Shown here: piece by piece, positions 7,064 to 31,296 of the stretch
Numbering within the stretch: the stretch's first letter is position 1
Layout of the letters: every line of letters begins with the position of its first letter
Source of the DNA: a virus
DNA: 37,359 nucleotides
Strand: one strand, 5' to 3'
Virus record (IMG/VR): IMGVR_UViG_3300029258_003867
Coordinates: 1 to 37,359 of that record
The notes under the pieces: generated by a model
Database searches by the model: none
Seen by the model: only the letters and a program-made list of their open reading frames with translations
What the model was told of the DNA's origin: nothing
Program-made: the position numbers and the translations under genes

Positions 7064-7079
7064 TTAGGAGATGTTCTAT

Positions 7080-8594
7080 ATGTCCAATATGGGTAAGGCA
7101 CAAGAAGTAGCAGCACAAGTACGAAGAGTATTTAAGAGTAATGAAATTGTAACCTTTCTGACATCGACTGCCTTGGATGTAGATGTCATAGAGACAGGTA
7201 TCCCTTCATTAGATCTTGCCTTGGGAGTAGGAGGAGTACCTAGGGGAAGAGTAGTTGAAATTTTTGGCCCCGAGGGAGGAGGAAAAACTAGCACATGCCT
7301 TAGTATTTGTGCACAAGCACAAGCCGCGGGAGGTGTTGCTGCATTTATTGATGTTGAGCATGCTTTAGATCCTACTTGGGCGAGAAAGTTAGATGTGGAT
7401 TTAGATAATCTCATACTTTCACAGCCTAACTCTGGTGAAGAAGCCTTGTCTCTATTGCAGGTGTTATCCGGTTCAGAAGAAGTAGATGTGATAATAGTCG
7501 ATTCTGTTGCTGCTATTTCACCTATGGCAGAATCTACAGATGATGTAACTAACATAGCTTCTGGAGGTATAGGTTTACAAGCTCGTCTTATGTCTTCTTC
7601 TTTACGTAAACTGTGTGCTACCATAGGGCAATCACCTTCGTGTGTTATATTTACAAATCAGGTGAGAGAGAAGATAGGGGTCATGTATGGATGTTTTCAC
7701 GGTGACTCTGGAGTTATGTTGGCCGATGGTAGTAGTTTACCTATTCGTACTATAGTTAACAATCAAATACCAGTGGATGTGCTATGCTGGGATCATTCGG
7801 AGAATAAAGTAGTTTCTGCTCCCGTGATTGATTGGCATCGTAATGGCACAGCCGAACAATTCATTAAGTTTACCGTTAGTGATAATACAGGAACTGTCAG
7901 ACAACGTTTTTTATGTACTGACCATCACATTATACCTACCCCTTCAGGTGAAAGACGTGCGGAAGATCTTGAAGTAGGAGATGATGTATTCTTTCTTAAT
8001 GAGAAGGTACTTTCGGATAAAATACAGTCTAGGCCTGTAGGATCGATTCTAAGTAAAGAAATAGTGACAGACAAACCATCTATGCAGCGCTTTGATATTA
8101 CTGTTCAGGATCATGCTAATTATTTTGTAAATGGTGTTAACGTGCATAACTCGCCTGAAACTACTCCTGGAGGACGTGCCCTCAAATTTTATTCATCTGT
8201 TCGTATTCGGACATCCTCTAGTAGCAGTGCTAGTAAATTGATTGGTGCTAAAGATAATCCTACTGGACAGATGATAAGTTTCAAGATTGTAAAAAATAAA
8301 GTAGCTCCTCCTTTCAAAACAGCAGAAGCTATCATCAGCTTTGAGAGGGGCTGGGACAAGGAAGAGGGTTTAGTTACTACTTTGATAGCGTTAGGTATAG
8401 CTAAAAGGGCAGGTGCTTATTATGATCTGATTGGCGAAAGATTTCAAGGTAGATCTGCTATTGTGGACTATATGAGAGAAGACCCTTTGTTTTGTGAAGA
8501 GGCCAGGTCATTACTATTGGCTCAAGGAAAAGCTCCCATGGTAGGCGAAGAAGTAGTTGATGAAAGTGAAGATATAAGAGAAGAGGAAGAATAA
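7080..8594 (+). CDS. recA: RecA recombinase with mini-intein
   Basis: A 504-residue precursor, 351 residues after removal of a 153-residue intein. The Walker A motif GPEGGGKT, the following helix, Walker B VDVIIVDSVAAI, and the L1/L2-side segments (MSSSLRKL, VIFTNQVREKIGVMYG, SPETTPGGRALKFYSSVR) are RecA hallmarks. RecA forms ATP-dependent filaments on single-stranded DNA for strand exchange. The annotated start at 7080 is nine bases after AGGAG; the in-frame ATG at 7071 touches the AGGAG and is unlikely. The C-terminus is short and acidic (DESEDIREEEE), as in cellular RecA. The position after the SSB gene fits a replication-recombination operon. Confidence 0.95.
   Translation: MSNMGKAQEVAAQVRRVFKSNEIVTFLTSTALDVDVIETGIPSLDLALGVGGVPRGRVVEIFGPEGGGKTSTCLSICAQAQAAGGVAAFIDVEHALDPTWARKLDVDLDNLILSQPNSGEEALSLLQVLSGSEEVDVIIVDSVAAISPMAESTDDVTNIASGGIGLQARLMSSSLRKLCATIGQSPSCVIFTNQVREKIGVMYGCFHGDSGVMLADGSSLPIRTIVNNQIPVDVLCWDHSENKVVSAPVIDWHRNGTAEQFIKFTVSDNTGTVRQRFLCTDHHIIPTPSGERRAEDLEVGDDVFFLNEKVLSDKIQSRPVGSILSKEIVTDKPSMQRFDITVQDHANYFVNGVNVHNSPETTPGGRALKFYSSVRIRTSSSSSASKLIGAKDNPTGQMISFKIVKNKVAPPFKTAEAIISFERGWDKEEGLVTTLIALGIAKRAGAYYDLIGERFQGRSAIVDYMREDPLFCEEARSLLLAQGKAPMVGEEVVDESEDIREEEE
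7692..8150 (+). mobile_element. Mini-intein in RecA
   Basis: A 153-residue intein inserted between VMYG and SPETTPGG. It starts CFHGDSGVMLADG, has block B LCTDHHIIPT, block F FDITVQDHANYF, and ends NVHN before Ser+1. It has no room for an endonuclease domain. The insertion lies just before the conserved TPGG loop that contacts DNA, so RecA should be inactive until spliced. Confidence 0.93.
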
Positions 8595-10959: not shown

Positions 10960-11685
10960 ATGACTGAGTTCGATCACGATGTTGATAGGTCTGCAGTGAT
11001 ATGTCTTAGTGGGGGAGCTGATTCTTCTACTCTATTAGGTTGGTGGTTAAGCAGTCCTTCGGTAGATAAAGTATTTCCAATATCTTTTGATTATAGACAG
11101 AAACATGTAAGAGAACTAGCAGCAGGAGCATTAGTTCTAGCCCACTACGCAGAACTTTATCCAGAGGTTATTCAGTCACGTAAAATTTTCCATATAGGAG
11201 AAATTTGGGGAGATGTAACTACTGCACCTTTGCTTAATCCTAAAGTAGTCATTCCTGATCAATCAGACAATAAACAAGTTAGCACGGTAGTACCTTTTCG
11301 TAACACTATCCTAATAGCTATTGCTGCTGGCTATGCTGAAACTGTAGGGGCTGCTAATATTGTATATGGTATGGTGAAAGAAGATATACCTGCCTATCGA
11401 GATTGTCGTCCTGAATATGTATCAGGTATGTCCAAAGCTTTGTATCTAGGAGCTACTGAGGAGCATCGTTCTCCTATATTGCACGCTCCTTTTAACACGT
11501 GGAGCAAGGCGCAAATAGTTGAGTGGGGGTTAGCTCATGATGTTCCTTATCATTTAACACATACCTGTTACGAAGGTACTACGTTAGCTTGTGGTAAGTG
11601 TGATGCCTGCGCCGAACGTATTCAATCTTTTAGAGACAATGGTGTAGAAGATCCTATACCTTATGCTATCAGTATAGATTGGTGA
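10960..11685 (+). CDS. queC: 7-cyano-7-deazaguanine synthase QueC
   Basis: A 241-residue protein. The N-terminal PP-loop is LSGGADSSTLLG, and the C-terminal zinc-binding segment is CYEGTTLACGKCDACAER, with four Cys. Between them PFRNTILIAIAAGYAE and YVSGMSKAL are QueC-typical. QueC turns 7-carboxy-7-deazaguanine into preQ0 using ammonia and ATP. The length is normal for the family and no glutamine amidotransferase domain is fused, so it is ordinary QueC rather than a Gat-QueC. GGGAGG lies seven bases before the start. Confidence 0.95.
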   Translation: MTEFDHDVDRSAVICLSGGADSSTLLGWWLSSPSVDKVFPISFDYRQKHVRELAAGALVLAHYAELYPEVIQSRKIFHIGEIWGDVTTAPLLNPKVVIPDQSDNKQVSTVVPFRNTILIAIAAGYAETVGAANIVYGMVKEDIPAYRDCRPEYVSGMSKALYLGATEEHRSPILHAPFNTWSKAQIVEWGLAHDVPYHLTHTCYEGTTLACGKCDACAERIQSFRDNGVEDPIPYAISIDW

Positions 11686-14066: not shown

Positions 14067-17000
14067 ATGAAAGATTACAGTTTACGTGTGCTTGAACAAA
14101 AATATCTACGTAAAGATATTGCTGGTAATGTGATAGAAACGTTACCAGAATTCTATACTAGAGTATCTCAAGGTATAGGAGAAGTAGAGGAGACTGATGA
14201 AAAAAGAGAACTGATTACTGGTAAAGTGTATGACCTTTTAGAAGGACAGAAAGCGCTCTTTGGAGGCCGTACTTTAGTAGCTGCAGGGATTCACCCTAAC
14301 GATGAATTTACCAAGGTTAATCTTACCTTGCTCAATTGCTTTGTTGTAGGCGTACAAGACTCTCTTACTGAGATATTTCAGGCAGTATTTCGATCAGCTA
14401 AGACATTGGCAGCTGGTGGAGGTGTTGGTTATAACTTTTCTATGATACGGCCAGAAGGAACACCTGCTAGTAATTTTGATAGGGTAGCTAGTGGCCCTGT
14501 TTCTTTCATGGAGGTATTTCATGCTGCAGCTAGTAAAATTAACCAAGGAAGTAGACGTGGTGCCCAGATGGGTATATTGGAGGACTGGCATCCGGATATC
14601 TTCAAGTTTATAGAAGCTAAGCATGGAGAAGGGGCGGAGGAGAAGCTTACTACCTTTAACCTTAGCGTAGGTCTTCACGACGCATTATTAGAGGCATACA
14701 GGACAGGCAAAGAATGGCCTTTAACTTTTGATAATAAAACTGTCACTAAAATAGATGCTCAGGAGTTATTATTACATATTGCCAAACATGCATGGTCTAA
14801 TGGAGAGCCTGGAGTTATTTATCTAGATAATGCCAATAGATACAATCCTACTCCTCACCTGGGAAAATTATCGGCAGTTAATCCTTGTATAGCCGAAGGC
14901 ACCTTGATAGCTACTGGTAGAGGAATGGTGCCCATAGAAGAAGTGACAGAACTAGATCAGGTATGGGTAGATCATAGGTTAGATCCTGATCATCATGGAT
15001 CACTTTTTCCTGTAAGTGAAGTTTTTGACGTAGGAGAAAAACCTTTAGTAGAGTTAGTTACTCGTTATGGCTATCGATTAGCAGCTACTCCCGATCATAA
15101 AGTGTATACAGATAGTGGCTGGTTGAGTTTGGACAGACTTCGTCCAGGTCATCGTCTATGTCTTTTATCTAAAAGTATTTTCGGTTCAGGTAACTTGAGC
15201 AATAAAGATCCTTGGGCTGCTGGATTTCTTGCAGGTATGGCTACTCAGGGTGCAGAATTTGCAGGTAATCGATTACATTTTTACGTGAATGTAGGCGATG
15301 CTCACGTGTCAACTTTGGTCATGGAATCTCTCATATCTGCTTTTGAAGTAGTTCCTCAATGTCAAATGGCACGAACAGATAGAGGTTTGATGACGCGTAT
15401 ATCTGTGGACGATTCTAAAGTAGTAGAACTGTTCAGGCAGATAATATTTCCTGATCGTATTGGATCTGAAATTTGGGGATGCGATGTTAGCACACAAGCG
15501 GGCTTTATTGCTGGCTTAATGTTACAACGTGTTAGTGCTATGAAAGGTCCTCAAGTTCTCTGTCGCTATATGCGTTTAGCTAAGGATGCACAGCTGTTAC
15601 TTCTAAACCTAGGCATAATAAGTAATATAAAAGTAGTAGCAGTAGTGCCCAAAGGTTCTAGAGGTAAGAAGAATCTGAACGTTACCTCTCCTCGTCTTCT
15701 TTCCGTAGCGCCTATCTTTGCTTATCAGGAAGCTTGTGCTGAGCTACTTTCATTCCCTGTAGATCCTTTTATGTTGGACTATCTAGAAAATAGACCTGCA
15801 GAATCCTTTTCAGATACAGTACAGAATGTATCTAGTATTGCTTCGGCTAGAGTTTATGACATAAAGGAAGAAACTACTCATTCTTATGTGGCAGGAGGTA
15901 TTGTTGTACACAATTGTTCTGAAGCAGTATTATACCCAGGAGAAGCTTGTTGTTTAGGTTCTATCAATCTGGCAGCACATGTATCTTCTGGTACTGTGGA
16001 TACACATAAGTTATCAGATACTGCAGCTACCATGACCAGAGCCTTAGATAATGTTATACAAACTTCTTATTACCCACTGCAAGATATGGGTGATAATTCT
16101 GTACGAGACTCAGTATTTGATACTAGAAAGCTGGGCTTAGGTATAATGGGATTGCACGATGCTCTTATCGCAGAGGGTGTTCCTTATGATTCTGAGGAAG
16201 GGAGACAAAGAGCTGCTACTTTTCAAGAGATTATTAACGAAACTGCTAGAGAAACATCTATTCAATTGGCAGAAGAGAGAGGTAGCTTTCCTGCATTCTT
16301 GCCTAACCCAGTTATTGGAGATATCCCAATACGTAATGCTTCTCGTACTAGTATAGCACCTACTGGTTCTATTGCGATGGTTTGTGATGTGTCTAGCGGT
16401 TGCGAACCTTATTACGATTGGGTTTTCACTAAGTACTACTTTGATCGTACTGAAGAGGCTTACACAGTAATTCCTGCTCTAGAAACTCTGGCAGTTCAGA
16501 ATGATTATTGGGGATGCAGAGGAGAGTGGCAGTCTCTTATGGACAATCCTCCCTCTGATACTGAATCCATGAAGACCTGGAGAGGTGATATAGAAAAACT
16601 AGTAGGGTCTAAAGTGGTTTCAGTTATTAAAGGGGCTAAAGATATAGCTCCTATGGACCATCTCAAGATGCTAGCAGCTCTACAGGAACATGTAGACCAG
16701 GCTATATCTAAGACTATAAATTGCGCTCACGATACTACCGTGGAACAGATCTTAGAGCTTTTAGTCGCTGCCGATGAGCTTGGCTGTAAAAGTTTTACTT
16801 GTTACAGAGATGGTAGTAGGGGTCTTGAAGTATTGAGCAGTGGTGTAGCTGCTGCTGATGCTGAGATCAAGTTAGTACAAGATCTTACTACGGTTGAGCG
16901 TCCTAAAGGTATTCCTGCTTGGTCTTCCTTTTTACGATCTCCTGCAGGTACTCTTAATGGTACTATCACTATCCACCCTGAATACAATCGACCATTTGAG

Positions 17001-17351
17001 ATGTTCCTTGCGGTAGGAAAGAGCGGTACTGATGTAACAGCCCATACAGAAGCAATGGCTAGATTGATCTCACTACTTTTGAAAAAGGGAGCCACTCTAG
17101 AGGAGATAGCCTCACAACTCCTAGGTATCGGAGGGTCGCAGCCCGTAGGCTTTGGCGCAGACAGAGTCTTGTCGTTACCCGATGGCATTGCTCAGATTAT
17201 TCTCGAATTTTTGAACAGTCGAGGAGAATCTGTCGAGGTAGATGAAGCTCAGGCGATTGGTGAGATGTGTCCTATGTGCCACAATAATAGTATAGTACGT
17301 AGTGGTACATGCACTATGTGTAGAAACTGTTTTTACACTACTTGTGGTTAA
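14067..17351 (+). CDS. nrdJ: Class II (adenosylcobalamin-dependent) ribonucleotide reductase with intein
   Basis: A 1094-residue precursor, 751 residues after splicing. The N-terminal region has TLLNCFVVGV (redox Cys), TLAAGGGVGYNFSMIRP, RRGAQMGIL and GEPGVIYLDNANRYNP. The active site NPC-SE is split by the intein, so that Cys+1 of the extein is the thiyl-radical Cys. After it come EACCLGSINLA, LGLGIMGLHD, ISIAPTGSI-type IAPTGSIAM, and SCEPYYDWVF-type CEPYYDW. The C-terminus ends in a Cys-rich zinc ribbon (CPMCHNNS, CTMCRNC, CG) typical of NrdJ. No NrdB radical subunit is encoded in the window, and a B12-dependent enzyme needs none. It makes deoxynucleotides from ribonucleotides for phage replication. 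Confidence 0.95.
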   Translation: MKDYSLRVLEQKYLRKDIAGNVIETLPEFYTRVSQGIGEVEETDEKRELITGKVYDLLEGQKALFGGRTLVAAGIHPNDEFTKVNLTLLNCFVVGVQDSLTEIFQAVFRSAKTLAAGGGVGYNFSMIRPEGTPASNFDRVASGPVSFMEVFHAAASKINQGSRRGAQMGILEDWHPDIFKFIEAKHGEGAEEKLTTFNLSVGLHDALLEAYRTGKEWPLTFDNKTVTKIDAQELLLHIAKHAWSNGEPGVIYLDNANRYNPTPHLGKLSAVNPCIAEGTLIATGRGMVPIEEVTELDQVWVDHRLDPDHHGSLFPVSEVFDVGEKPLVELVTRYGYRLAATPDHKVYTDSGWLSLDRLRPGHRLCLLSKSIFGSGNLSNKDPWAAGFLAGMATQGAEFAGNRLHFYVNVGDAHVSTLVMESLISAFEVVPQCQMARTDRGLMTRISVDDSKVVELFRQIIFPDRIGSEIWGCDVSTQAGFIAGLMLQRVSAMKGPQVLCRYMRLAKDAQLLLLNLGIISNIKVVAVVPKGSRGKKNLNVTSPRLLSVAPIFAYQEACAELLSFPVDPFMLDYLENRPAESFSDTVQNVSSIASARVYDIKEETTHSYVAGGIVVHNCSEAVLYPGEACCLGSINLAAHVSSGTVDTHKLSDTAATMTRALDNVIQTSYYPLQDMGDNSVRDSVFDTRKLGLGIMGLHDALIAEGVPYDSEEGRQRAATFQEIINETARETSIQLAEERGSFPAFLPNPVIGDIPIRNASRTSIAPTGSIAMVCDVSSGCEPYYDWVFTKYYFDRTEEAYTVIPALETLAVQNDYWGCRGEWQSLMDNPPSDTESMKTWRGDIEKLVGSKVVSVIKGAKDIAPMDHLKMLAALQEHVDQAISKTINCAHDTTVEQILELLVAADELGCKSFTCYRDGSRGLEVLSSGVAAADAEIKLVQDLTTVERPKGIPAWSSFLRSPAGTLNGTITIHPEYNRPFEMFLAVGKSGTDVTAHTEAMARLISLLLKKGATLEEIASQLLGIGGSQPVGFGADRVLSLPDGIAQIILEFLNSRGESVEVDEAQAIGEMCPMCHNNSIVRSGTCTMCRNCFYTTCG
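14886..15914 (+). mobile_element. Intein at the NrdJ active-site cysteine, degenerate LAGLIDADG domain
   Basis: A 343-residue intein (precursor residues 274-616). It starts CIAEGTLIATGRG, has block B AATPDHKVYT, block F VYDIKEETTHSYV, and ends IVVHN before Cys+1. It sits between NP and CSE, the Asn-Cys-Glu active site. The central domain has two LAGLIDADG-like repeats, AAGFLAGMATQG and QAGFIAGLMLQRV, and neither keeps the acidic residue. The endonuclease is therefore probably dead while splicing residues remain. Confidence 0.93.
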
Positions 17352-17376: not shown

Positions 17377-18726
17377 ATGTCTAATTTTACACCTTCTTTG
17401 ATCAAGTGTCAGTTGTGTGGTACTTCTTTTCAGAAGATTACCAACACTCATCTGCAAAAGGCTCACCCAGGTTGGACGTTAGATAAATATCGTGAAAGAT
17501 TTGGAGAGAACTCCTTAATGTCTGACGATTGGCGTTGGATATTATCCCAATCAGCCCAAGCCAGCTCCTCGGCCAGAAACATTTCTGCTAATATTACTAA
17601 GAGAGAAAAACAAAAGGAAATTGCAGAAGAGTTTACCCTTGAGGAGTTTCAGGTAGTAGTAGGGGGCCTGCTAGGTGATTCTTATTTGTTCCAACCTCAA
17701 TCTATAAAGTATCCTCCTACAGGTACAGGCTCTACTTATTTAGAAATGCAACATTGTTTTAATCAAGTGCCTTACGCAGCATGGAAAGGCCGTTTTCTGA
17801 ATAGGTTTAGTCCTCGACTTCTACAGTGGATGGGTTACAACACAGTTAAGTCCCGATTCGATGTTAAACACAAAATAGCTGTTTGCTCTCATTTTCTCTT
17901 TGGAGATATGGCTAAGGAATTTTACCCCTCACCTACATTCAAAAAAGTTCTTCCACTGTCTTTAGTAGAACAGTTAGAACCTTTGGGCTTAGCTATTTGG
18001 TATCAGGATGATGGTACTTATCCTCATGATAGACTAGCTTATTTTTGTACTGATAGCTTCGCACCTGAGGACGTTGCAGCTGCTGCAGAGATACTAACCT
18101 CTAAATTTGACATTCCATTTAAGGTGCACAATTATAAAGGAGATATTGCTAGATTAGCTATCTCAGGAGACGCCACCTCTTCTTTTTGCGATTTGATTCG
18201 TGAGTTTGTTCATCCTAGCATGAGTTACAAGATAGATCACAGTAATTGTGTGTTTGCAGAAGTGACCAAACGTATGAAATTTATCTACGGCCACTATTTA
18301 TTGGATTATGATGGTGCTTGTAGTACCAATCACGGGCATAATGCAGTAGTAGAGTTTTCTGTGCGTGGACCTATCAATCCTGATACTGGCATGGTTATTG
18401 ACTTTGGAGACATTAAGAAAGTGGTAAAGCCTCTGCTAGACGCTTTTGATCACGCATTTCTTAATGATGAAAATCCTATTTTTGCTGTTAAGTCCACTGC
18501 AGAGGTAATCGCTTCTTATTTAGCTGCTACACTGAGTCAGTATATTCCCGGACTTAGGAGGATACGTTTTTATGAAACGGATACCTCCTGCGTAGATTTA
18601 GATGTACAGGATAATATCGATAACCTAAATTCTTTACTGCAACGGTTAGCTGAATCGGGTGAGTGGTGGCAGAGTTTACAGAAATCTATTAAGAGCTCAG
18701 TGTTTCCTTTGGAAGATTCAGAATGA
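17377..18726 (+). CDS. queD: Zinc finger-LAGLIDADG homing endonuclease fused to QueD
   Basis: A 449-residue single frame. Residues 8-45 are a MucR/Ros-like zinc finger (CQLCGTSF, HLQKAHPGWTLDKYRERFG). Residues about 90-285 are a LAGLIDADG endonuclease with GGLLGDSYLF (acid D101) and LAIWYQDDGTY (D211, D212), both acids present. Residues about 295-430 are a complete QueD: FIYGHYLL (H306), CSTNHGHN (catalytic C315, H319, H321), GMVIDFGDIKK, DHAFLND (H359) and YETDTS (Glu). QueD makes 6-carboxytetrahydropterin from dihydroneopterin triphosphate. A tail of about 20 residues follows. There is no Hint domain, so it is not an intein. AGGAG precedes the only good start. No strong internal ribosome-binding site before QueD is visible, so QueD is made as a fusion unless it is processed. 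Confidence 0.87.
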   Translation: MSNFTPSLIKCQLCGTSFQKITNTHLQKAHPGWTLDKYRERFGENSLMSDDWRWILSQSAQASSSARNISANITKREKQKEIAEEFTLEEFQVVVGGLLGDSYLFQPQSIKYPPTGTGSTYLEMQHCFNQVPYAAWKGRFLNRFSPRLLQWMGYNTVKSRFDVKHKIAVCSHFLFGDMAKEFYPSPTFKKVLPLSLVEQLEPLGLAIWYQDDGTYPHDRLAYFCTDSFAPEDVAAAAEILTSKFDIPFKVHNYKGDIARLAISGDATSSFCDLIREFVHPSMSYKIDHSNCVFAEVTKRMKFIYGHYLLDYDGACSTNHGHNAVVEFSVRGPINPDTGMVIDFGDIKKVVKPLLDAFDHAFLNDENPIFAVKSTAEVIASYLAATLSQYIPGLRRIRFYETDTSCVDLDVQDNIDNLNSLLQRLAESGEWWQSLQKSIKSSVFPLEDSE

Positions 18727-18750
18727 TAGGATATTATGCGAGGACATCTT

Positions 18751-19236
18751 ATGCGCTACCAAGGTAATCATCGAGTAGAAATTGAAATGGCATGGGAAGC
18801 AGGGCATCGCCTATCTTGTAGTAGCTGTCCCTCTTCTTCTTCTCCTCACGGCCACTCGTATAGGGCGTGGATAGCTGTTTCAAGTGCCTCTCTTAATGAT
18901 CAAGGGATGGTAATAGATTTTTCCGATCTGAAGGGTTTTATCAGGGAATGGATTGATTTACATTGGGATCATGCATTTATTTGTAATGATCGGGATCCTC
19001 TTTTCCCTTTGTTGAGGAGCTTGGGAGAGAAACTGCGACCTGCCAATAATACTTCACCACCTTATTCTGATGGAGGTTTTAGGTTGTGGACCTTTTCAGG
19101 TAAAGATCCTACGGCAGAAGCCATGGCTCAACATTTGTATACGATAGTTAAAGAGTGGTTACCATATCCTGACATCTCAGTAGACTATGTTACTGTAGCA
19201 GAAACTCTTACTTCCAAAGCTACTTACCGGGAATGA
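18751..19236 (+). CDS. Second QueD/PTPS-family protein with unusual Cys spacing
   Basis: A 161-residue protein of the 6-pyruvoyltetrahydropterin synthase family. Seen are EAGHRLSC (first zinc His), a serine-rich loop ending SPHGHSYR (two zinc His), GMVIDFSDLKG, WDHAFICND and VAETLTSKATY (Glu). In QueD the catalytic Cys lies four residues before the HGH His and in eukaryotic PTPS six. Here the nearest Cys are seven and ten before, and the residue at the QueD position is Ser. The activity may therefore differ from QueD. I chose ATG 18751 because GAGGA lies six bases upstream; an ATG at 18736 is also possible. It follows the fused QueD by 24 bases, so two paralogs sit in tandem. Confidence 0.82.
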   Translation: MRYQGNHRVEIEMAWEAGHRLSCSSCPSSSSPHGHSYRAWIAVSSASLNDQGMVIDFSDLKGFIREWIDLHWDHAFICNDRDPLFPLLRSLGEKLRPANNTSPPYSDGGFRLWTFSGKDPTAEAMAQHLYTIVKEWLPYPDISVDYVTVAETLTSKATYRE

Positions 19237-22191: not shown

Positions 22192-22341
22192 ATGATCTGG
22201 GCGTCCCTAGGTAGATGGCATTTGCATGGTTGCTTATTATGCGTACTGGAGCGCATTTATTATAGAAATCACTGGACGCCTTTTGTAAGAATTATTAAAC
22301 GTCGTCAGTATTGGTTATGTTTAAGGGGGAAGAATTCATGA
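22192..22341 (+). CDS. 49-residue basic, aromatic-rich protein
   Basis: A short frame that fills the gap between the genes at 21953 and 22338. CCGGAG lies upstream of ATG 22192 with good spacing, and its TGA (22339-22341) overlaps the ATG of the next gene as ATGA, the same coupling seen elsewhere in the window. The product (MIWASLGRWHLHGCLLCVLE onward) is rich in Trp, Tyr, His, Cys and Arg. The first part may form a short amphipathic or membrane-associated helix. No family is recognised. Confidence 0.55.
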   Translation: MIWASLGRWHLHGCLLCVLERIYYRNHWTPFVRIIKRRQYWLCLRGKNS

Positions 22342-22943
22342 CAGTGGTAAGAGAAAATCACAACAACCTGCATATAGTAGAATTAGATGATCAACCTTAT
22401 GATGGTAGTCAACTACGTTCTTTGTGGATAGCAGAGCAAGCTGCCTTGTATGGCACTGCCTTATCCGTCTTTCAGGGTCCTTGTGATGTAGAAGATCATA
22501 TGGTAGATTTAGTAGACATTCAAGATAACTCTTTTATATCCTCTGACCTTATGTTACACTACATCATTGAAATATTTGGTATTGGTATAATTCCTACTGT
22601 TTTATACCAGCGTTTGTTTGTAAACGCCATAGCAACAGAACTAAGACCTTACGGTCCTATTTTAGTTAACGGGGACGATATTTTTATTGATGTGGTCAAT
22701 ACAGGAGGAGATCCATATCAACTACCTAAGTTATCTGTTTCTATAGCTACCGTTTCTCCTATCTCTGGCTTAATTCACATAGGTTTGAATATTCACTCCA
22801 GTGGCGTTCCTAAAGGAGTGATTGCGGGATCTCTAGACTACTTTGATTTACCTCTTGATCGTTTCATTTTTAATACAACTACACGTATGGCCGAAATCTA
22901 TAATAGTGTTCTTTTTGCATCTTCTAAAGTAAAAACTGTGTAA
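22338..22943 (+). CDS. DUF366-family protein
   Basis: A 201-residue protein beginning at ATG 22338 with AGGGGGA upstream; the longer frame from 22311 lacks a suitable site. It matches the DUF366 pattern: DGSQLRSLWIAEQAALYGTA, SVFQGPCDVEDHMVDLVD, SSDLMLHYIIEIFG, YQRLFVNAIATELRPYG, GDDIFIDV, LPKLSVSIATVSPISGLIHI and GVP. DUF366 is a small family known mainly from archaea and some bacteria whose biochemical role I cannot state. In this phage it follows the queD and glycosyltransferase genes, so it may act on a 7-deazaguanine intermediate or product. That link is inference. Confidence 0.7.
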   Translation: MTVVRENHNNLHIVELDDQPYDGSQLRSLWIAEQAALYGTALSVFQGPCDVEDHMVDLVDIQDNSFISSDLMLHYIIEIFGIGIIPTVLYQRLFVNAIATELRPYGPILVNGDDIFIDVVNTGGDPYQLPKLSVSIATVSPISGLIHIGLNIHSSGVPKGVIAGSLDYFDLPLDRFIFNTTTRMAEIYNSVLFASSKVKTV

Positions 22944-22954
22944 GGAGAAGTATT

Positions 22955-23302
22955 ATGGATTCAGTCCTAGAAGAAGTTGTACCTATTTCATGGGACTCTG
23001 AAATAGTAACTAAAGAACCTTTGCAGATAGTAACAGAAGTTGTACCTTCTTCAGATGATGTTTTCGAAGAGAAAGTACCGGATTCGAATACACTTGATTG
23101 TAGGTTGGCTGCTCAAGAGTGCCGCACACTTTTGGATAGGTTGCTGCATTCACGATCTGTTGATGTAGATGATCCTATTACTGTCAAAGAAGTATACTCT
23201 GTTATAATGGAAGCTATATTACTTTTGGAAGGATGTGATAGCCTGCAAGCTAAATTAACTGCTATCAATCTACCTTCGGAAGTGCCTAAGGTGTGTTTAT
23301 GA
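22955..23302 (+). CDS. Hypothetical acidic protein upstream of sbcC
   Basis: A 115-residue acidic protein with AAGGAG before the start. The N-terminal 45 residues are disordered and Glu/Asp/Val-rich (EEVVPISWDSEIVTKEP). The C-terminal part (LDCRLAAQECRTLLDRLLHS and SVIMEAILLLEGCDSLQ) forms two predicted helices. The stop TGA overlaps the sbcC-like start as ATGA, so translation is probably coupled. No family is recognised. Confidence 0.65.
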   Translation: MDSVLEEVVPISWDSEIVTKEPLQIVTEVVPSSDDVFEEKVPDSNTLDCRLAAQECRTLLDRLLHSRSVDVDDPITVKEVYSVIMEAILLLEGCDSLQAKLTAINLPSEVPKVCL

Positions 23303-24582
23303 TTACACAACTAGCACTTTCCAATTTTCAATGCTACTCCAAGCTAGCTTTGGAACTGCATCCTCACTTTAATGTTTTTGTAGGAGAGTCTAACGCAGGT
23401 AAGACAGCCATTCTCAGGGCTTTACGTTTGCTCTTCTATAATCAACCTAGAGGTTTATATCTGGTTAGAAAAGGTGCTTCAGAGCTTAGTGTAGAATGTA
23501 TTACTGATACTGGGCATACCTTGAAAAGGACTCGAGGCAAAAAGGTTAACAGCTATGCTGTAGACGACGAAGTTTATAAAAACTTTGGAGTGCATGTGCC
23601 TGAAGAAGTTACTAGAACTTTAGGTATAGCCTCCTCTGAACTTTTGTCTGACATCTATAATGCAGGGTTTGCAGGACAGCTAGATGGCCCTTTTTTGTTA
23701 AACATTACCGATTCTCAAAAAGGAAAAATTCTGACATCTCTAAGTGATGTATCTGAAGTAGATCAGGTACTATCTGAGGTGAGAGCAGAACGTAGAAAAT
23801 CCAAAACTACCACAGACAAACTATTACAGGATTTAGAAGAAGTAGAAGCACAACAAAGTACTTTTGCCTGGGTACCTTCAGCACAAGCAAAAGTAGCTAA
23901 GCTAGAAACTATTTTAGTTAGGGTAGAAGAAACACAGAGACAAATAGAGCAGCTTAAAAAGCTTCAGGATCAGTATGAAAGATGTACTGAACAGTTGGAG
24001 CAACGTAGAAGAGTTGTTACTATTTTAGCCAACAAATTAAATCTTTACTCGTCCTTATCTTTGGAAACCATTTGGGAACGCTATTCTACATTAACAACTC
24101 TTTTGACTAACTGGCGCACTGCTGCCAATACATTATCCCAACTTCAAAAGGACCGAGATGTTCTAGCAAGCAGTACAACGACTTCTTCGATTCATATTGA
24201 TACAGCAACTCAATTACAAGAAGAGCTCCATTCCCTTCGCGCTCTGCTAGCTAACTGGCGCACTGCTGCCAATACATTATCCCAACTTCAAAAGGACCGA
24301 GATGTTCTAGCAAGCAGTACAACGACTTCTTCGATTCATATTGATACAGCAACTCAATTACAAGAAGAGTTATCCTCATTGATCCTTTTACAAATTCAAT
24401 GGCAAAAAACTCAGAGTGAGATGGAGTTGCAAACGGATAGTATTCTTGAACATGGCAGACTTCTATCTTATGTTAAAAAGGAACAACAGAAAGTAATTCA
24501 AGGTTTAGGTGGTATATGTCCTACGTGTGCTCAACCTTTAGGTGAGGATGCTCTAGCTCATTTAGAGGAGGGACATTCATGA
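23299..24582 (+). CDS. SbcC/Rad50-like N-terminal half ending in zinc hook
   Basis: A 427-residue protein. Walker A is GESNAGKT (residues 29-36) after LALSNFQCYSKLALEL. A long coiled coil follows, containing a 48-residue near-exact duplication. It ends with CPTCAQPL (Cys407 and Cys410), the CxxC zinc hook. The ABC signature and Walker B are missing, because they are encoded in the separate gene at 26254. The full Rad50/SbcC ATPase would form when the two chains associate. With SbcD it should process DNA ends during recombination or replication. I chose ATG 23299 because of the ATGA overlap and AAGG upstream; a GTG two codons earlier is weaker. Confidence 0.87.
   Translation: MITQLALSNFQCYSKLALELHPHFNVFVGESNAGKTAILRALRLLFYNQPRGLYLVRKGASELSVECITDTGHTLKRTRGKKVNSYAVDDEVYKNFGVHVPEEVTRTLGIASSELLSDIYNAGFAGQLDGPFLLNITDSQKGKILTSLSDVSEVDQVLSEVRAERRKSKTTTDKLLQDLEEVEAQQSTFAWVPSAQAKVAKLETILVRVEETQRQIEQLKKLQDQYERCTEQLEQRRRVVTILANKLNLYSSLSLETIWERYSTLTTLLTNWRTAANTLSQLQKDRDVLASSTTTSSIHIDTATQLQEELHSLRALLANWRTAANTLSQLQKDRDVLASSTTTSSIHIDTATQLQEELSSLILLQIQWQKTQSEMELQTDSILEHGRLLSYVKKEQQKVIQGLGGICPTCAQPLGEDALAHLEEGHS
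24107..24369 (+). repeat. 119-bp perfect direct repeat, 144-bp period
   Basis: Bases 24107-24225 and 24251-24369 are identical over 119 bp, separated by 25 bp. The 144-bp period is in frame (48 codons), so the coiled coil contains two copies of NWRTAANTLSQLQKDRDV and the following Thr-rich stretch. Identity at all codon positions indicates a very recent duplication. Confidence 0.97.
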
Positions 24583-25496
24583 AATTTCTATACATGACTG
24601 ACCTACATATCAGGTCTCAGATGAAACAAAGAAAAGATGATTTACTGGATACTATGTCCTCTAAATTATCCTCTGTTAGTTTTATGGCCCAAGAGTTAGG
24701 AGTAGATTTAATAGTATGTGGCGGCGATGTATTTGATGCTCCTAATCCTGCTTTAAGTGCTGCTGGCATCTTTGTTAAATTTTTGAAAGAATGTCCTATT
24801 CCTGTTTTCTCTATTCCTGGACAACATGATATGTATGGGTATAATAGGTCTACTCTATGGCGAACTCAATATGGTTTGATAGCCGCAGGGGACCTATTTA
24901 CTGACGTATATTCTCTTACCCCTTTTGAAGATTTTACTTTCATGGATCATAGATATGCTCAAGATAACCCTAAAGCACTTCTAGATTGTGATGTGGAGAT
25001 AGTTCACGAATTGTTGTTACCTTTCCCTTTTCTTGGACAAGAACTACCCATTGAAAGCTTTAATACCAAAGCTAAGGTAGTAGTATCTGCAGATTATCAT
25101 CCGGGTTATCCTATACATTGGCGCTCAGACGGTGTGGTATTTGTGCATCCAGGAGCTTTAATGCGTACAGAAAATTCCAAGACGGAGCGCGCTAGAACTG
25201 TACAAGTAGCCCTAGTAGATTTGAACAAAGAAGAGACGCCAGAAGTAACGTACCTACCTTTACCTGGAGTACTTCCTGCTGAGGAGGTATTTTTAGATAG
25301 GGCAGAAGGTAGCTCTATCATTACCGAAATAGCAGATTTTTGCTTAGACCCTTTTCTAGCAAAGATGGACCAAACGGATTTTAGTGGTAGAGCCTTGTTA
25401 ACTTCGTTAGTGCATTCAGCAGTAAACAATGCAGGTTTAAGTGATTCAGTGGCTACTGCTGTACTAGATAGGTTTACACAGAAAGGTTTGATATGA
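24579..25496 (+). CDS. SbcD/Mre11-like nuclease
   Basis: A 305-residue calcineurin-like phosphoesterase. Metal motifs are MTDLHI (D8, H10), CGGDVFD (D50) and SIPGQHDMYG, where the usual GNHD is GQHD, replacing a metal-binding Asn by Gln. Later SADYHPGYP and FVHPGALMR are typical of SbcD-like phage proteins. It would be the nuclease partner of the SbcC-like ATPase, cutting DNA ends or hairpins. The start overlaps the stop of the sbcC-like half as ATGA, which makes stoichiometric translation likely. The C-terminal capping domain is about 100 residues. Confidence 0.88.
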   Translation: MKFLYMTDLHIRSQMKQRKDDLLDTMSSKLSSVSFMAQELGVDLIVCGGDVFDAPNPALSAAGIFVKFLKECPIPVFSIPGQHDMYGYNRSTLWRTQYGLIAAGDLFTDVYSLTPFEDFTFMDHRYAQDNPKALLDCDVEIVHELLLPFPFLGQELPIESFNTKAKVVVSADYHPGYPIHWRSDGVVFVHPGALMRTENSKTERARTVQVALVDLNKEETPEVTYLPLPGVLPAEEVFLDRAEGSSIITEIADFCLDPFLAKMDQTDFSGRALLTSLVHSAVNNAGLSDSVATAVLDRFTQKGLI

Positions 25497-25762
25497 ACAG
25501 CGACGATGTTGTTTCTCAATTGAATACTTTATCTAATCGCAGACAGCAGCTATCTCGTACGTTGGCCCAAGTAGAGGGTCAGATAGCACAAATAGAAACA
25601 CAACAAGTTACTCTGTTACAAACTATGACAGAAGCAGAAGTAACTCCCGACAGTCTAGCTGCTAAAATCGAAGAATTAGAAACACAACTCTCCTCTGACT
25701 TAATAAAGGCTGATCAGATTCTTACAGCGGCGGAAAGGGAAATCAATGCTAGCGGAAGCTAG
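25493..25762 (+). CDS. Short coiled-coil protein between sbcD and the C-terminal sbcC half
   Basis: An 89-residue protein made almost entirely of a predicted coiled coil (QLNTLSNRRQQLSRTLAQVE, then IAQIETQQVTLLQTM). The start overlaps the sbcD stop as ATGA. Because it lies between the two pieces of a split SbcC, it could be a detached part of the returning coiled-coil arm. It lacks Cys, so it is not another zinc hook. That role is inference from position and helical character. Confidence 0.65.
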   Translation: MNSDDVVSQLNTLSNRRQQLSRTLAQVEGQIAQIETQQVTLLQTMTEAEVTPDSLAAKIEELETQLSSDLIKADQILTAAEREINASGS

Positions 25763-26303
25763 AGGTAAAAAATTAGATAAGCCCAGCGTTGTTCCTAGAC
25801 GAGGCGATAATCCTCTAACTGTTTTAGATGTAGTAAAAGTGGTTAACTATGGAACCTATGAAGTGCATACTGAACTTGTAGATGATTCAGAATTTGGTGG
25901 CGATGGCGCTTTGGAAATGGAAGTGGCTTATACTGTACCTGATGGTTATTATATAGGAACTCCTGAAGATGCCAAAGCTTTAGCTAAACGTGGTATACAA
26001 CCCGAGCCCATTTCGGAAGATAGTAATATCTGCTCCATTGGATTTTCGCCTCAAGATAATAAGTGGTATGGTTGGTCTCATAGAGCTTTGTATGGCTTTG
26101 GCGTAGGAGATGAAGTTGATTCAGGAGATGCCGGCTCTGAGTATTTCGATCCCATAGCTGAGGGTGAAACTGTTATATTGACTAACCTAGACGAAGCTAA
26201 AGAAAGAGCCATAGGCTTTGCTAGATCTGTAGCTATTAAGAAGGAGAGTTCTTATGAGCCAAGTAGCACAGGTCTTAGCTCGCTACAAAAATCTTTCCTC
26301 TAG
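25746..26303 (+). CDS. Conserved phage hypothetical protein (WYGWSHRA motif)
   Basis: A 185-residue protein with AAAGGGA before its start, which overlaps the previous gene by 17 bases. The first 25 residues are basic. A central segment reads ICSIGFSPQDNKWYGWSHRA followed by LYGFGVGDEV, which I associate with uncharacterised phage proteins of unknown function. The final part is overlapped by the next gene by 50 bases. No nuclease or ATPase motifs are visible. Its fixed position inside the sbcCD cluster suggests a related role. Confidence 0.6.
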   Translation: MLAEARGKKLDKPSVVPRRGDNPLTVLDVVKVVNYGTYEVHTELVDDSEFGGDGALEMEVAYTVPDGYYIGTPEDAKALAKRGIQPEPISEDSNICSIGFSPQDNKWYGWSHRALYGFGVGDEVDSGDAGSEYFDPIAEGETVILTNLDEAKERAIGFARSVAIKKESSYEPSSTGLSSLQKSFL

Positions 26304-26886
26304 AGTTAGTGAAGCGGTAGGTCATAAGAAGTCATTGGATGAAAGATACTCTCAACTAAAAGATACTCTAACCAAAGAGGAAGTTATTTCTACCTCTTTA
26401 GATCAGCAAGCGGAAGTGATCCGTGTCGTATCCTCTACGGTTAAGACGAGAGCTACTGAAGATTTTGCTCGTTTAGTAAGCGAAGGGATCAGATTCATAT
26501 TTGAAACTGATGATGAGTTTAGAGTAGTATTGAAAGATACTAAAACGTTACCTGAAGCTTCTTTTGAGTTAGTGGTGGATGGAGAAGCAATGGATCCCAA
26601 AGAGTCGTTAGGAGGAGGTACTGTAGACGTTATTAGCTTTTGTTTACGTCTAGTAATGTTAGAACTGTTTAAGGTAGGAGGTTCTCTTATACTGGACGAA
26701 TCATTTAAGCATTTAAGTAGAGGATATTTATCTAGAACTGCTATGTTTTTGAGACAGTATGCAGAAACCTCAGGCAGACAGATTATATTAGTAACTCATT
26801 CACCTGAGATGACACAGTTTGCCCATAGAGTTTTTCGTGTAACCAAACATAACGATACTAGTAGGGTGGAGGAAGTAGATGGCTAG
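26254..26886 (+). CDS. SbcC/Rad50-like C-terminal half
   Basis: A 210-residue protein carrying what the gene at 23299 lacks. Residues 1-60 are coiled coil, about 65-110 are the strands after the coil, then come the ABC signature SLGGGTVDVISFCLRL, Walker B GGSLILDESFKHLS and the H-loop ILVTHSPEM. It should pair with the Walker A half to form composite ATP sites. There is no CxxC hook here. GGAGAG lies seven bases before the start. The start lies inside the preceding gene, so the cluster is translated in tight coupling. Confidence 0.87.
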   Translation: MSQVAQVLARYKNLSSRVSEAVGHKKSLDERYSQLKDTLTKEEVISTSLDQQAEVIRVVSSTVKTRATEDFARLVSEGIRFIFETDDEFRVVLKDTKTLPEASFELVVDGEAMDPKESLGGGTVDVISFCLRLVMLELFKVGGSLILDESFKHLSRGYLSRTAMFLRQYAETSGRQIILVTHSPEMTQFAHRVFRVTKHNDTSRVEEVDG

Positions 26887-28131: not shown

Positions 28132-28744
28132 TGATTTAGAACTTTCCGAGGCTCTTGAATTAGGCAGGCTTATAGACTCTAGTCCCTACAAGTTTGAAGT
28201 ATCTCGTATGTTATTGCAGGGTAAGAGTTTATTGGATATAGCCGTAGAACTTAGAGATACTTTTGGTTTTGATGTAGATGTTCAGGAACTATACGCCTTT
28301 CAGGGTAAATTCTATGAACAGTACAAACCTCAAGTTGCCCGAATAACTCATCTAGAACGTGTAAGCAGTGACAGTGTGGTGGCCCAGAGCGAACAGTTTA
28401 ATTTGTTATCTCAATTGACCGATCTTCTATCCGATGCAGAGAGTCGCATTATTCGTATTAAAGGGTTACCTGATGCTAAACAAAGCGCACAAATGGAACA
28501 AGCTCTTGTTAAGTTGTACAACCTAAAAAAGGACTTAGCTGAGAGTATAGGCGAGATTTTAGAAGAGACTGGTATCGAGAGTAAACTTCGAAGACTATTG
28601 GAACAAGTGGCTAAGTTAGTGGTACAATGTTTCCTTCCTCATATACCTGCAGAAATAGAAAAGGGAAAGCTTCTCCAGCAATTTTCCAAAGAGATGGATT
28701 CCTTAGTAAGGGTCATCATTAGATCGGGAGATAAAGAACCATGA
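28094..28744 (+). CDS. Putative terminase small subunit
   Basis: A 216-residue, mainly helical protein whose stop overlaps the terL start (ATGA). Residues about 25-70 (YKFEVSRMLLQGKSLLDIAV and FDVDVQELYAFQGKFYE) look like a helix-turn-helix of the kind used by small terminases to bind packaging sites. The C-terminal half has a long helical oligomerisation-like region. The start at 28094 is the first ATG in frame but has no good ribosome-binding site, so it may rely on coupling with the preceding gene. The assignment rests on position and helix-turn-helix character. Confidence 0.55.
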   Translation: MVTPLNSLPATNNDLELSEALELGRLIDSSPYKFEVSRMLLQGKSLLDIAVELRDTFGFDVDVQELYAFQGKFYEQYKPQVARITHLERVSSDSVVAQSEQFNLLSQLTDLLSDAESRIIRIKGLPDAKQSAQMEQALVKLYNLKKDLAESIGEILEETGIESKLRRLLEQVAKLVVQCFLPHIPAEIEKGKLLQQFSKEMDSLVRVIIRSGDKEP

Positions 28745-31296
28745 GTTCTTTCTCAGAATCTCAGGTACCCTCCTCTCCTTTTGGTTCTGTAGAGACCTTG
28801 CTACAAACAGAATTTGATAGGCTTACAGATCCTGATAAATCTTTCTGGTCGGAGGAACCTGTATCTTTTGAGGACTTCGTTACTTCTAGTGATTTTTGTC
28901 ATCACCCTCCTCTTACTCCTATACAACTTACTGATGTATTGGCCGTTTTAGGAGAAGACCCTAAACATATATACTCTCAGGATAAGTGCTCTCCTTATCA
29001 AATAGGAGTGCTAGAATATGGTAAGGGTGGAGGAAAGGATACTATAGCCAGTTTAGTTCAAGCCTACCTCTCTTATGTGTTTTTGTGTATGTACGAACCT
29101 GCTGAGTATTTTCGTCTAGGTCCTGGCTCTACTTTAGATATTCTTAATGTAGCTCCTGTAGGACAACAAGCTGAGAATATCTACTTCACTTACTTTTCTG
29201 AGCGTATCAAACGTTGTAGCTGGTTTCGCGATAATTTTGACCTTTCAGTTTCAGGCAGACTACTAGACCGTAGAAAAAATACTAGCAAAGGTCAAATCAA
29301 CCTAGGCGCTCGTTCCTGCATCTTTCCCAAAGGTGTCAGGGCCTTTTCTTTGCATAGTGCTCATCAGTCCTACGAAGGCTATAACGTGGTCTTCTTCATT
29401 ATGGACGAAAGTTGCTTGGCCCCGAAGACTAAGATTAGTACCTTGGAGGCATCTACTCAATGTATATCTACAATAGTTGAGGAGAAAAAGCCAGTCCATG
29501 TACTTTCCTATAATTGGAATACTCAAGCCTTTGAGTACAGACCTGTAGTGAATTGGTTTAAGTATCCAAAGAAAGAGAAGCTTTTCAGGATACACTTGGC
29601 TAATGGCAGGTCATTAGAGTGTACTTGTAATCATCACATTTTTGTAGATGACAAACGAGATGAAGTAAGAGCAGACGAACTCAGAGTAGGTGATAAGCTT
29701 TATACCAAACACCAAAGGCTATCTTCTGATCAGAATGTACCTGAGTGTATGCAATACAAATGCACACAACTGGCGAAGGCCTTACCCATTGATGATAGTG
29801 GAGAGCCTGAAGCTATCGAGATAGTATCTATAGAGCAGTTCGACTACGAAGGTTTTGTGTATGACATTGAGGTTGAGGGTAATCACAACTATGTAGCCGA
29901 TGGAATAATAGTACATAATAGTGCGTTCACTTCCGATGGCAAAAGAGCTAACGGTCCTGATGTACTTAATCTTCTCAGATCTTCCGCTACTTCTAGATTT
30001 GGAAACGCTTGGAAAGGCTTCTTGTTAAGCTTTCCGAGATATCCTGATGACATCGATTTTACCACTATACAACTAAACAAATGCGGTAATCTAGGCGGCC
30101 CTAATCCTACTATGTATGGTTCTAGGCACCCTACATGGGAGGTAGCTCCTACTAATAGGTTTACTGGAGGTACTTTTACTTTCGATAGAGTACTGGAAGG
30201 TAAACATGTAAAGTTTGATAATGTGCCTGTTATGTTTAAGCCGGAGTTTGATTCAGATCCTTATGAAGCTTTGGCTAAATATGGTACTATTGTTTTACGG
30301 TCCAAGCATCGGTGGTTGTCTGATCTTACTACCTTGGGTCATATAATGGGACCGAGACATCCCATATTTGAAACCCAAACCATTATTGTACAAGACAATC
30401 CAGATAATGAAGCGGGCGTTTCTCTTTATCGTGGTATAGGAAAAGAGATTGTTTCATGGGATATTTCCATTCCCAACAGACGTCTTCCTTTTGTCATTCA
30501 TATAGATTTAGGTCTAAAACAGGACTCTGCTGCACTCATGATAGGTCACGGGGAACCTACTATGGTACAGGTGAATGTTTTGGATGCCGACGGTACACCT
30601 AGAGTAGACGCCGTTACTGGTGAGTTTGTATCACAAGAAGAATCTATTTTGAAAGTAATAGAAGATGCTCATATAGTCTGGAAGCCTGAACCTGAAACTC
30701 CTGTAAGTACTCACAATGTAGAACGTATCGTTTTGGAAATATGTCAAGAGCTTAGAGTGGTTTATGTTAGCATGGACTTTTGGAACTCTGCACGTTTAGT
30801 AGAATCCTTGAAGCGTAGAGGTATACCCACAGAACAGCACAATATAGATAGGTATGATTATAATAATTTAAGACGCTCTCTGTCTGCTGGTTATGTAGAT
30901 CTTCTACAGTCTACGTTATTATGGGATGAACTTACTAATTTAGAAGATGATGGTCAGCGTGTTGATCATCCAGTTAAAGGTAGTAAAGACCTAGCAGATT
31001 GTTTAGCAGGGATTCATAGAGTTCTAAACCACAATAAAGCAGATATCATCAAACGACTAAAGCAGCCAGGGCTGTTAGTAAGAGCTGGAGCAGGGTTTAA
31101 TCATAGATCGCCTACGGGAGGAGGCAGTAATTCTTTTGTACAGAATCTGCCTTTTAATTATGGTAATTCTTCTCCTTCAGGCACTGCAGATTCTTCCCAG
31201 CGCAACAAGACCAGGTCTATACGAGGGGTTTCATTGACCAAGTCTAATGCAGCTCGAGGAGGTAGTAATGCAGCAATCTCTAGAAGATTTGGCTGA
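28741..31296 (+). CDS. terL: Terminase large subunit with mini-intein
   Basis: An 851-residue precursor, 682 after splicing. The ATPase domain has an atypical Walker A, GKGGGKD (residues 94-100), and Walker B VVFFIMDES (D222, E223). The nuclease domain has FVIHIDLGLKQDS, VVYVSMDFWNSARL and DHPVKGSKDLADCLAGI, giving the Asp residues of an RNase H-like fold. TerL is the motor that packs DNA into the capsid and cuts it. The intein is inserted straight after the Walker B Glu, so unspliced protein should have no ATPase. The C-terminus is a Ser/Gly-rich tail. Confidence 0.92.
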   Translation: MSSFSESQVPSSPFGSVETLLQTEFDRLTDPDKSFWSEEPVSFEDFVTSSDFCHHPPLTPIQLTDVLAVLGEDPKHIYSQDKCSPYQIGVLEYGKGGGKDTIASLVQAYLSYVFLCMYEPAEYFRLGPGSTLDILNVAPVGQQAENIYFTYFSERIKRCSWFRDNFDLSVSGRLLDRRKNTSKGQINLGARSCIFPKGVRAFSLHSAHQSYEGYNVVFFIMDESCLAPKTKISTLEASTQCISTIVEEKKPVHVLSYNWNTQAFEYRPVVNWFKYPKKEKLFRIHLANGRSLECTCNHHIFVDDKRDEVRADELRVGDKLYTKHQRLSSDQNVPECMQYKCTQLAKALPIDDSGEPEAIEIVSIEQFDYEGFVYDIEVEGNHNYVADGIIVHNSAFTSDGKRANGPDVLNLLRSSATSRFGNAWKGFLLSFPRYPDDIDFTTIQLNKCGNLGGPNPTMYGSRHPTWEVAPTNRFTGGTFTFDRVLEGKHVKFDNVPVMFKPEFDSDPYEALAKYGTIVLRSKHRWLSDLTTLGHIMGPRHPIFETQTIIVQDNPDNEAGVSLYRGIGKEIVSWDISIPNRRLPFVIHIDLGLKQDSAALMIGHGEPTMVQVNVLDADGTPRVDAVTGEFVSQEESILKVIEDAHIVWKPEPETPVSTHNVERIVLEICQELRVVYVSMDFWNSARLVESLKRRGIPTEQHNIDRYDYNNLRRSLSAGYVDLLQSTLLWDELTNLEDDGQRVDHPVKGSKDLADCLAGIHRVLNHNKADIIKRLKQPGLLVRAGAGFNHRSPTGGGSNSFVQNLPFNYGNSSPSGTADSSQRNKTRSIRGVSLTKSNAARGGSNAAISRRFG
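29413..29919 (+). mobile_element. Mini-intein after Walker B of TerL
   Basis: A 169-residue intein (precursor residues 225-393). It starts CLAPKTKISTLEAST, has block B ECTCNHHIFVDD and block F VYDIEVEGNHNYV, and ends IIVHN before Ser+1. It contains no endonuclease domain. It interrupts the extein between MDES and SAFTSDG. Confidence 0.93.

Follow-up and report, generated by a model that had tools for sequence, protein, structure and literature searches.

The SbcC/Rad50 ATPase of this phage is encoded in pieces. The window, by which we mean the whole 37,359-base virus record analysed here, is a fragment; within it, an N-terminal half of the ATPase (N-half), a C-terminal half (C-half), a small two-helix coil protein and the SbcD nuclease are specified by separate genes, and these genes are kept together in more than 100 loci. 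The likely reading is that they form a phage SbcCD/Mre11-Rad50 complex in which Rad50 is naturally made as separate chains, with the small coil as the hook-proximal part of the returning arm and SbcD as the partner. The split itself is firmly supported. The placement of the coil is supported but unproven, as there are no co-folding, binding or activity data. The usual picture of SMC and Rad50 proteins is a hairpin in which a single chain, folded at a hinge or hook, provides both arms. In the open-access literature searched, we found no account of an SbcC/Rad50 that is split in nature.

The N-half matches Pfam AAA_23 (E = 2e-13) and PHROG 16465, an exonuclease family (E = 3e-42). In the PDB, its profile matches Rad50 N-terminal chains, with 1ii8_A, 3qkr_A and 1f2t_A among the top hits. 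Foldseek, run with a predicted AF2 model of the protein (mean pLDDT of 84), returns RecF, cohesin and Rad50 N-lobes or N chains. The Walker A and Q-loop motifs occupy the N-terminal lobe and are followed by a long helical arm, as is expected of SbcC/Rad50. The CPxC hook of the family is also present, but at the chain end and not in the chain middle; the stop codon lies 17 residues past the CPTC motif. Zinc binding by this motif is inferred. A hook at the end of a chain is nonetheless chemically plausible, because short peptides from the hook are enough to form zinc dimers: those of 4 and 14 residues from P. furiosus Rad50 have logK12 values of 14.9 and 19.2, respectively (PMC5093744). The outgoing arm additionally carries a recent, in-frame tandem duplication that makes it longer, with protein copies beginning at residues 271 and 319.

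The C-half matches PHROG 15167, listed as an ATPase (E = 3.5e-29), and, weakly, Pfam SMC_N. The best PDB matches of its family profile are separate Rad50 C-terminal chains (3qkr_B and 1ii8_B), and 1f2t_B also scores high. The protein holds the signature, Walker B and H-loop that characterize the C-terminal lobe of SbcC/Rad50, with the signature serine replaced by glycine. This replacement is family-wide, giving GGG where Rad50 has SGG, and it is possible that ATP engagement is weak or altered with glycine at this position. Neither half taken alone contains a complete ATP site.

Five overlapping or adjoining genes follow one another on the plus strand in the order N-half, SbcD, coil, Tad6-like gene and C-half (Table 1). 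The N-half and C-half are separate open reading frames, each with its own start codon, and the C-half starts 1.67 kb downstream of the N-half stop. The SbcD start overlaps the N-half stop (ATGA), and purine-rich sequences resembling ribosome-binding sites lie 5' of SbcD, the coil, the Tad6-like gene and the C-half. SbcC/Rad50 is expected to be encoded with an SbcD/Mre11 nuclease, and this is the case here. An earlier, sequence-only reading of the window had claimed a Walker A half ending at a CxxC hook, a separate gene for the signature and Walker B half 1.7 kb downstream, and SbcD and an 89-residue coil between the two; all of these claims hold. Its description of the remaining gene between the halves as a conserved unknown fails. 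The encoded protein is a strong match to Tad6, described in Pfam as a Type I Thoeris inhibitor, scoring 120.9 bits against a curated cut-off of 27; Tad6 activity is inferred from this match only. The gene is present in the window locus and in none of the other fetched loci, and we therefore regard it as an insertion that lies outside the conserved module. Its sole match in the phage collection is in Phage NCTB (38% identity over 66%).

Table 1. Features of the split SbcC/Rad50 locus, in order of position in the window.
Feature	Position	Strand	Remarks
SbcC/Rad50 N-half, 427 aa	23299..24582	+	ABC lobe I, outgoing helical arm, C-terminal zinc-hook motif
Walker A GESNAGKT, N-half residues 29-36	23383..23406	+	G29, G34 and K35 invariant in 80 relatives
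Q-loop glutamine Q127 of N-half	23677..23679	+	>=90% conserved; invariant in 78-row set
In-frame tandem duplication in N-half outgoing arm	24098..24369	+	Two 128-nt copies, spacing 144 nt, 97% identical
CPTC zinc-hook motif, N-half residues 407-410	24517..24528	+	C407 invariant; P408 and C410 >=90% conserved
SbcD/Mre11-type nuclease, 305 aa	24579..25496	+	Pfam Metallophos E = 1e-9; PHROG 100 SbcD E = 8.5e-5
Small coiled-coil subunit, 89 aa	25493..25762	+	Proposed hook-proximal part of returning arm
Tad6-like ORF between coil and C-half, 185 aa	25746..26303	+	Pfam PF25188 E = 5.9e-35
SbcC/Rad50 C-half, 210 aa	26254..26886	+	N-terminal coil, ABC lobe II
ABC signature, C-half G120-G122 (region LGGGTVDV)	26611..26619	+	G120 and G122 >=90% conserved; aligned to Rad50 SGG
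Walker B LILDE of C-half	26686..26700	+	D148 and E149 invariant in 47 sequences
H-loop histidine H182 of C-half	26797..26799	+	T181 and H182 invariant in first six sequences aligned

Relatives were collected by tblastn against annotated phages and then by scans of viral contigs with the N-half and C-half alignments, which yielded at least 80 loci each; profiles built from these loci were used to find loci holding both halves. Both are found in 110 distinct loci, nearly all on viral contigs, and a single-chain form is present in none of the 110. Since the loci were gathered by similarity to split members, this absence applies to the family and not to all phage SbcC. The sequence-only reading had proposed a search for the same gene order in phage genomes. 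The order N-half, SbcD, coil, C-half recurs in 91 of the 110 loci, and N-half, coil, C-half, SbcD is found in 17. When 84,980 prokaryote genomes are scanned with the C-half, only 14 loci are recovered, all on MAG contigs, and the family therefore looks viral. Distance correlations among the N-half, C-half, coil and SbcD range from 0.83 to 0.91, with a permutation maximum of 0.23, which supports the conclusion that the four genes evolve together. SbcC/Rad50 proteins have both lobes and arms in one polypeptide, and the family departs from this definition in every locus; for that reason, we file it only as a split variant working like SbcC/Rad50.

The position of the hook is conserved as well. 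The CxxC lies 30 residues or fewer from the N-half end in 105 of the 110 loci, and 120 of 126 distinct complete N-halves carry a terminal CxxC, counted over the 34 residues at the C-terminus. Shuffled sequences would give 0.4 such proteins on average and 4 at most, so the terminal CxxC is far beyond chance. The exceptions among the 110 loci are three proteins with a variant CPxx...C ending (L051, L072 and L094), one with an HNH-like extension beyond the hook (L133) and the fusion of SbcD and N-half in L064, whose hook is far from the end of the chain. Variants such as CPIFDVPC in place of CPxC are seen at the N-half ends of L051, L054, L068, L072 and L094.

Among annotated phages, tblastn identifies the same split in Bacillus phage vB_BboS-125, Microcystis phage Mvi-JY20 and the 485-kb uncultured phage LR745208, and C-halves also in Microbacterium phage Magritte and Tunturiibacter phage Tunturi_5. 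An SbcD-like ORF in vB_BboS-125 (L002:9247-10227) is unannotated in the record. In each of the five genomes, the N profile has a single main match, and so does the C profile. A full-length SbcC elsewhere in the genome had been named beforehand as an observation that would refute the split; no full-length SbcC or AAA_23 protein was found in the five named phage genomes, the window being only a 37-kb fragment. In Magritte, the C-half (gene 2, at 0.3 kb), the N-half (gene 155, at 93.8 kb; L277:3839-4891) and the coil (gene 245, at 127.2 kb) are all unlinked. Magritte retains the coil and C-half, but a terminal CxxC is missing from its N-half; conservation of the hook is thus not universal. In Tunturi_5, the C-half is on the plus strand at 19 kb and the N-half on the minus strand at 127 kb, about 108 kb apart; a coil-like 97-aa ORF, with a weak profile match, directly follows the N-half. 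With the halves tens of kilobases apart in two phages, and on opposite strands in one of them, no frameshift can join them.

These observations bear on three alternatives to a two-chain ATPase. Apparent gene splits often turn out to be artefacts of sequencing or pseudogenes, and the locus might represent a broken gene or a faulty assembly. This is all but excluded by the 110 loci, the conserved motifs, the co-inheritance of the genes and the distant halves in two phages. Assembly error, frameshift and readthrough were ruled out by the conservation and by the distant gene positions. Alternatively, a split intein could join the halves after translation, or frameshifting could do so during translation. 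The window is intein-rich, a point in favor of joining, but Pfam assigns neither half an intein or Hint domain, and the distance and opposite strands of the Tunturi_5 genes speak against both routes, making either very unlikely. Finally, each half could work in a complex of its own, the N-half acting, for example, with the coil and SbcD, and the C-half with a sliding-clamp-like protein. A clamp-like ORF does lie between the coil and the C-half in LR745208, and another is found downstream of the coil in Magritte, which we take to be sliding-clamp-like from our own reading of its sequence; moreover, the C-half is unlinked from the N-half in two phages. Against this, neither half has a complete ATP site, and each genome holds one of each half, with strong co-inheritance, so that separate complexes seem highly improbable. 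The 110 loci without a single chain and the two phages with distant halves support the sequence-only claim of an ATPase that has to be put together from two polypeptides.

The role of the small coil is less certain. By match it belongs to PHROG 18563, a family of unknown function, and its own family is matched in 138 loci, by one ORF in each, at an E-value below 1e-3; the set searched has 4974 similarly sized ORFs. The coil ORF sits between the N-half and C-half in 108 of the 110 loci. A coil-like ORF is seen at the same position in L015. The AF2 model predicts two helices (residues 3-47 and 52-88) divided by a proline-containing turn, with a pLDDT of 92.6; the pTM of 0.49 leaves the relative placement of the helices uncertain, and a Foldseek search with the model gives no meaningful match. 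Within E. coli SbcC, the best segment for the coil profile is 529-597, with 21 bits versus 2.3 for the next, and it begins about twenty residues past the hook at 506. Of 13 single-chain SbcC proteins compared, however, only 4 have their best coil match in the 110 residues that follow the hook, and the likeness to the post-hook segment is therefore suggestive and not general.

Arm lengths give a mixed picture. In the clade with the order N-half, SbcD, coil, C-half, the median out-arm of 169 aa approximates the sum of the return pieces (7 post-hook residues, 81 of the coil and about 65 of the C-half coil, the last being our estimate). In the N-half, coil, C-half, SbcD clade, the out-arm is far longer (median of 295 aa versus about 157 for the return pieces), which excludes a simple one-to-one antiparallel coil there. 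A natural fusion of SbcD and N-half, 771 aa long and accompanied by a separate C-half, is found at L064:7059-9374 (same contig as L167). The stretch from its hook to its C-terminus is 142 residues long, though this tail scores barely above shuffles.

A different view of the coil is possible, namely that Rad50 consists of two chains and that the coil is a separate subunit with a regulatory or clamp role, in the form of a helical hairpin bound to the arm or to SbcD. The two helices with a proline-containing turn in the AF2 model are consistent with this, as are the near-constant length of the coil (about 77-84 aa) while the out-arm varies, with no correlation between them (rho -0.06), the retention of the coil without a hook in Magritte, and the 4 of 13 result for single-chain SbcC. 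On the other hand, the coil lies between the N-half and C-half in both gene orders, its best E. coli SbcC segment is immediately past the hook, and lengths are roughly balanced in the main clade. The assignment of the coil to the returning arm, which the sequence-only reading had raised as a possibility, gains support from the conserved position between the halves, the post-hook match in E. coli SbcC and the long-tailed L064 fusion. It remains an inference, unproven without binding data or a co-folded model.

In the split-Rad50 reading that we prefer, the N-half and C-half would associate into one ABC head, by analogy with the N and C chains of Pyrococcus Rad50 in crystals. ATP would be sandwiched between two such N:C heads, ATP-dependent dimerization being inferred, and zinc would join the tips of two N chains. 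The returning arm would not be covalently continuous; the part near the hook would be the small coil, and the part near the head would be the coil with which the C-half begins. SbcD would be located at the base of the complex. The window also encodes DNA polymerase A, a match to single-strand-binding protein, RecA and a RusA-like resolvase, neighbors that fit recombination-dependent replication. The complex may trim DNA ends for this mode of replication together with the RecA and RusA-like proteins, end processing being inferred.

The closest working model is the pair of separately expressed catalytic halves of Pyrococcus furiosus Rad50 (A and B chains of PDB 1f2t, 1ii8 and 3qkr), which form one head from separate chains and are the closest profile matches. 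That pair was made in the laboratory and lacks the hook and the distal arms, whereas the phage split is natural, occurs at the hook and comes with a third chain. Single-chain SbcC/Rad50 and T4 gp46 represent the parent kind. E. coli SbcCD (SbcC of 1048 aa) and archaeal Mre11-Rad50 share the ABC head motifs, the helical arm, the CxxC hook and the neighboring SbcD/Mre11; they differ in having one chain, where the phage family has halves cut at the hook plus a coil, and in having SGG as the signature. T4 gp46/gp47 are likewise phage-encoded Rad50/Mre11 homologues and serve recombination-dependent replication (PMC3175470). Unlike the split phage Rad50, T4 gp46 is a single chain. Fusions of Mre11 and Rad50, the opposite rearrangement to a split, are known from Mimivirus (R555) and Bacillus phage 0305phi8-36, the latter without one P-loop NTPase segment (PMC3175470). 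L064 is likewise an SbcD fusion, in its case to the N-half. PHROG 16465, 15167 and 18563, which match the N-half, C-half and coil, respectively, are listed there as unrelated families, and we found no recognition of them as parts of one Rad50.

A chain broken exactly at the hook, with a small helical gene in place of the missing arm, is a natural experiment on arm continuity. It asks whether continuity is needed for opening, tethering and control of the nuclease. The split also offers biochemists small proteins that can be expressed one by one, and it links PHROG families listed apart as 'exonuclease', 'ATPase' and 'unknown'. A bolder reading, that this is a lineage-wide three-chain phage Rad50 whose arms or heads can be opened or exchanged by subunit dissociation, could as easily prove wrong as right. 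In it, one chain would carry the arm with the hook, a free small protein would serve as the returning arm, and the second lobe of the head would be on a third chain. Such dissociation, if true, would be impossible for a single-chain Rad50.

Several other features of the window deserve mention. Intein splicing domains are found in DNA polymerase A (1484-5371), ribonucleotide reductase (14067-17351) and an 851-aa putative terminase (28741-31296), and the phage is thus intein-rich. There is also a weak Hint match in RecA (7071-8594) and a LAGLIDADG domain in a QueD-like protein (17377-18726). The DNA polymerase A carries an N-terminal domain of the uracil-DNA-glycosylase superfamily (residues 24-173, E = 2e-24). 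A DUF366 protein is encoded at 22311-22943 (Pfam, E = 1.7e-35). Lastly, a QueC-like gene (10960-11685) and two QueD-like genes (17377-19236) suggest 7-deazaguanine DNA modification.
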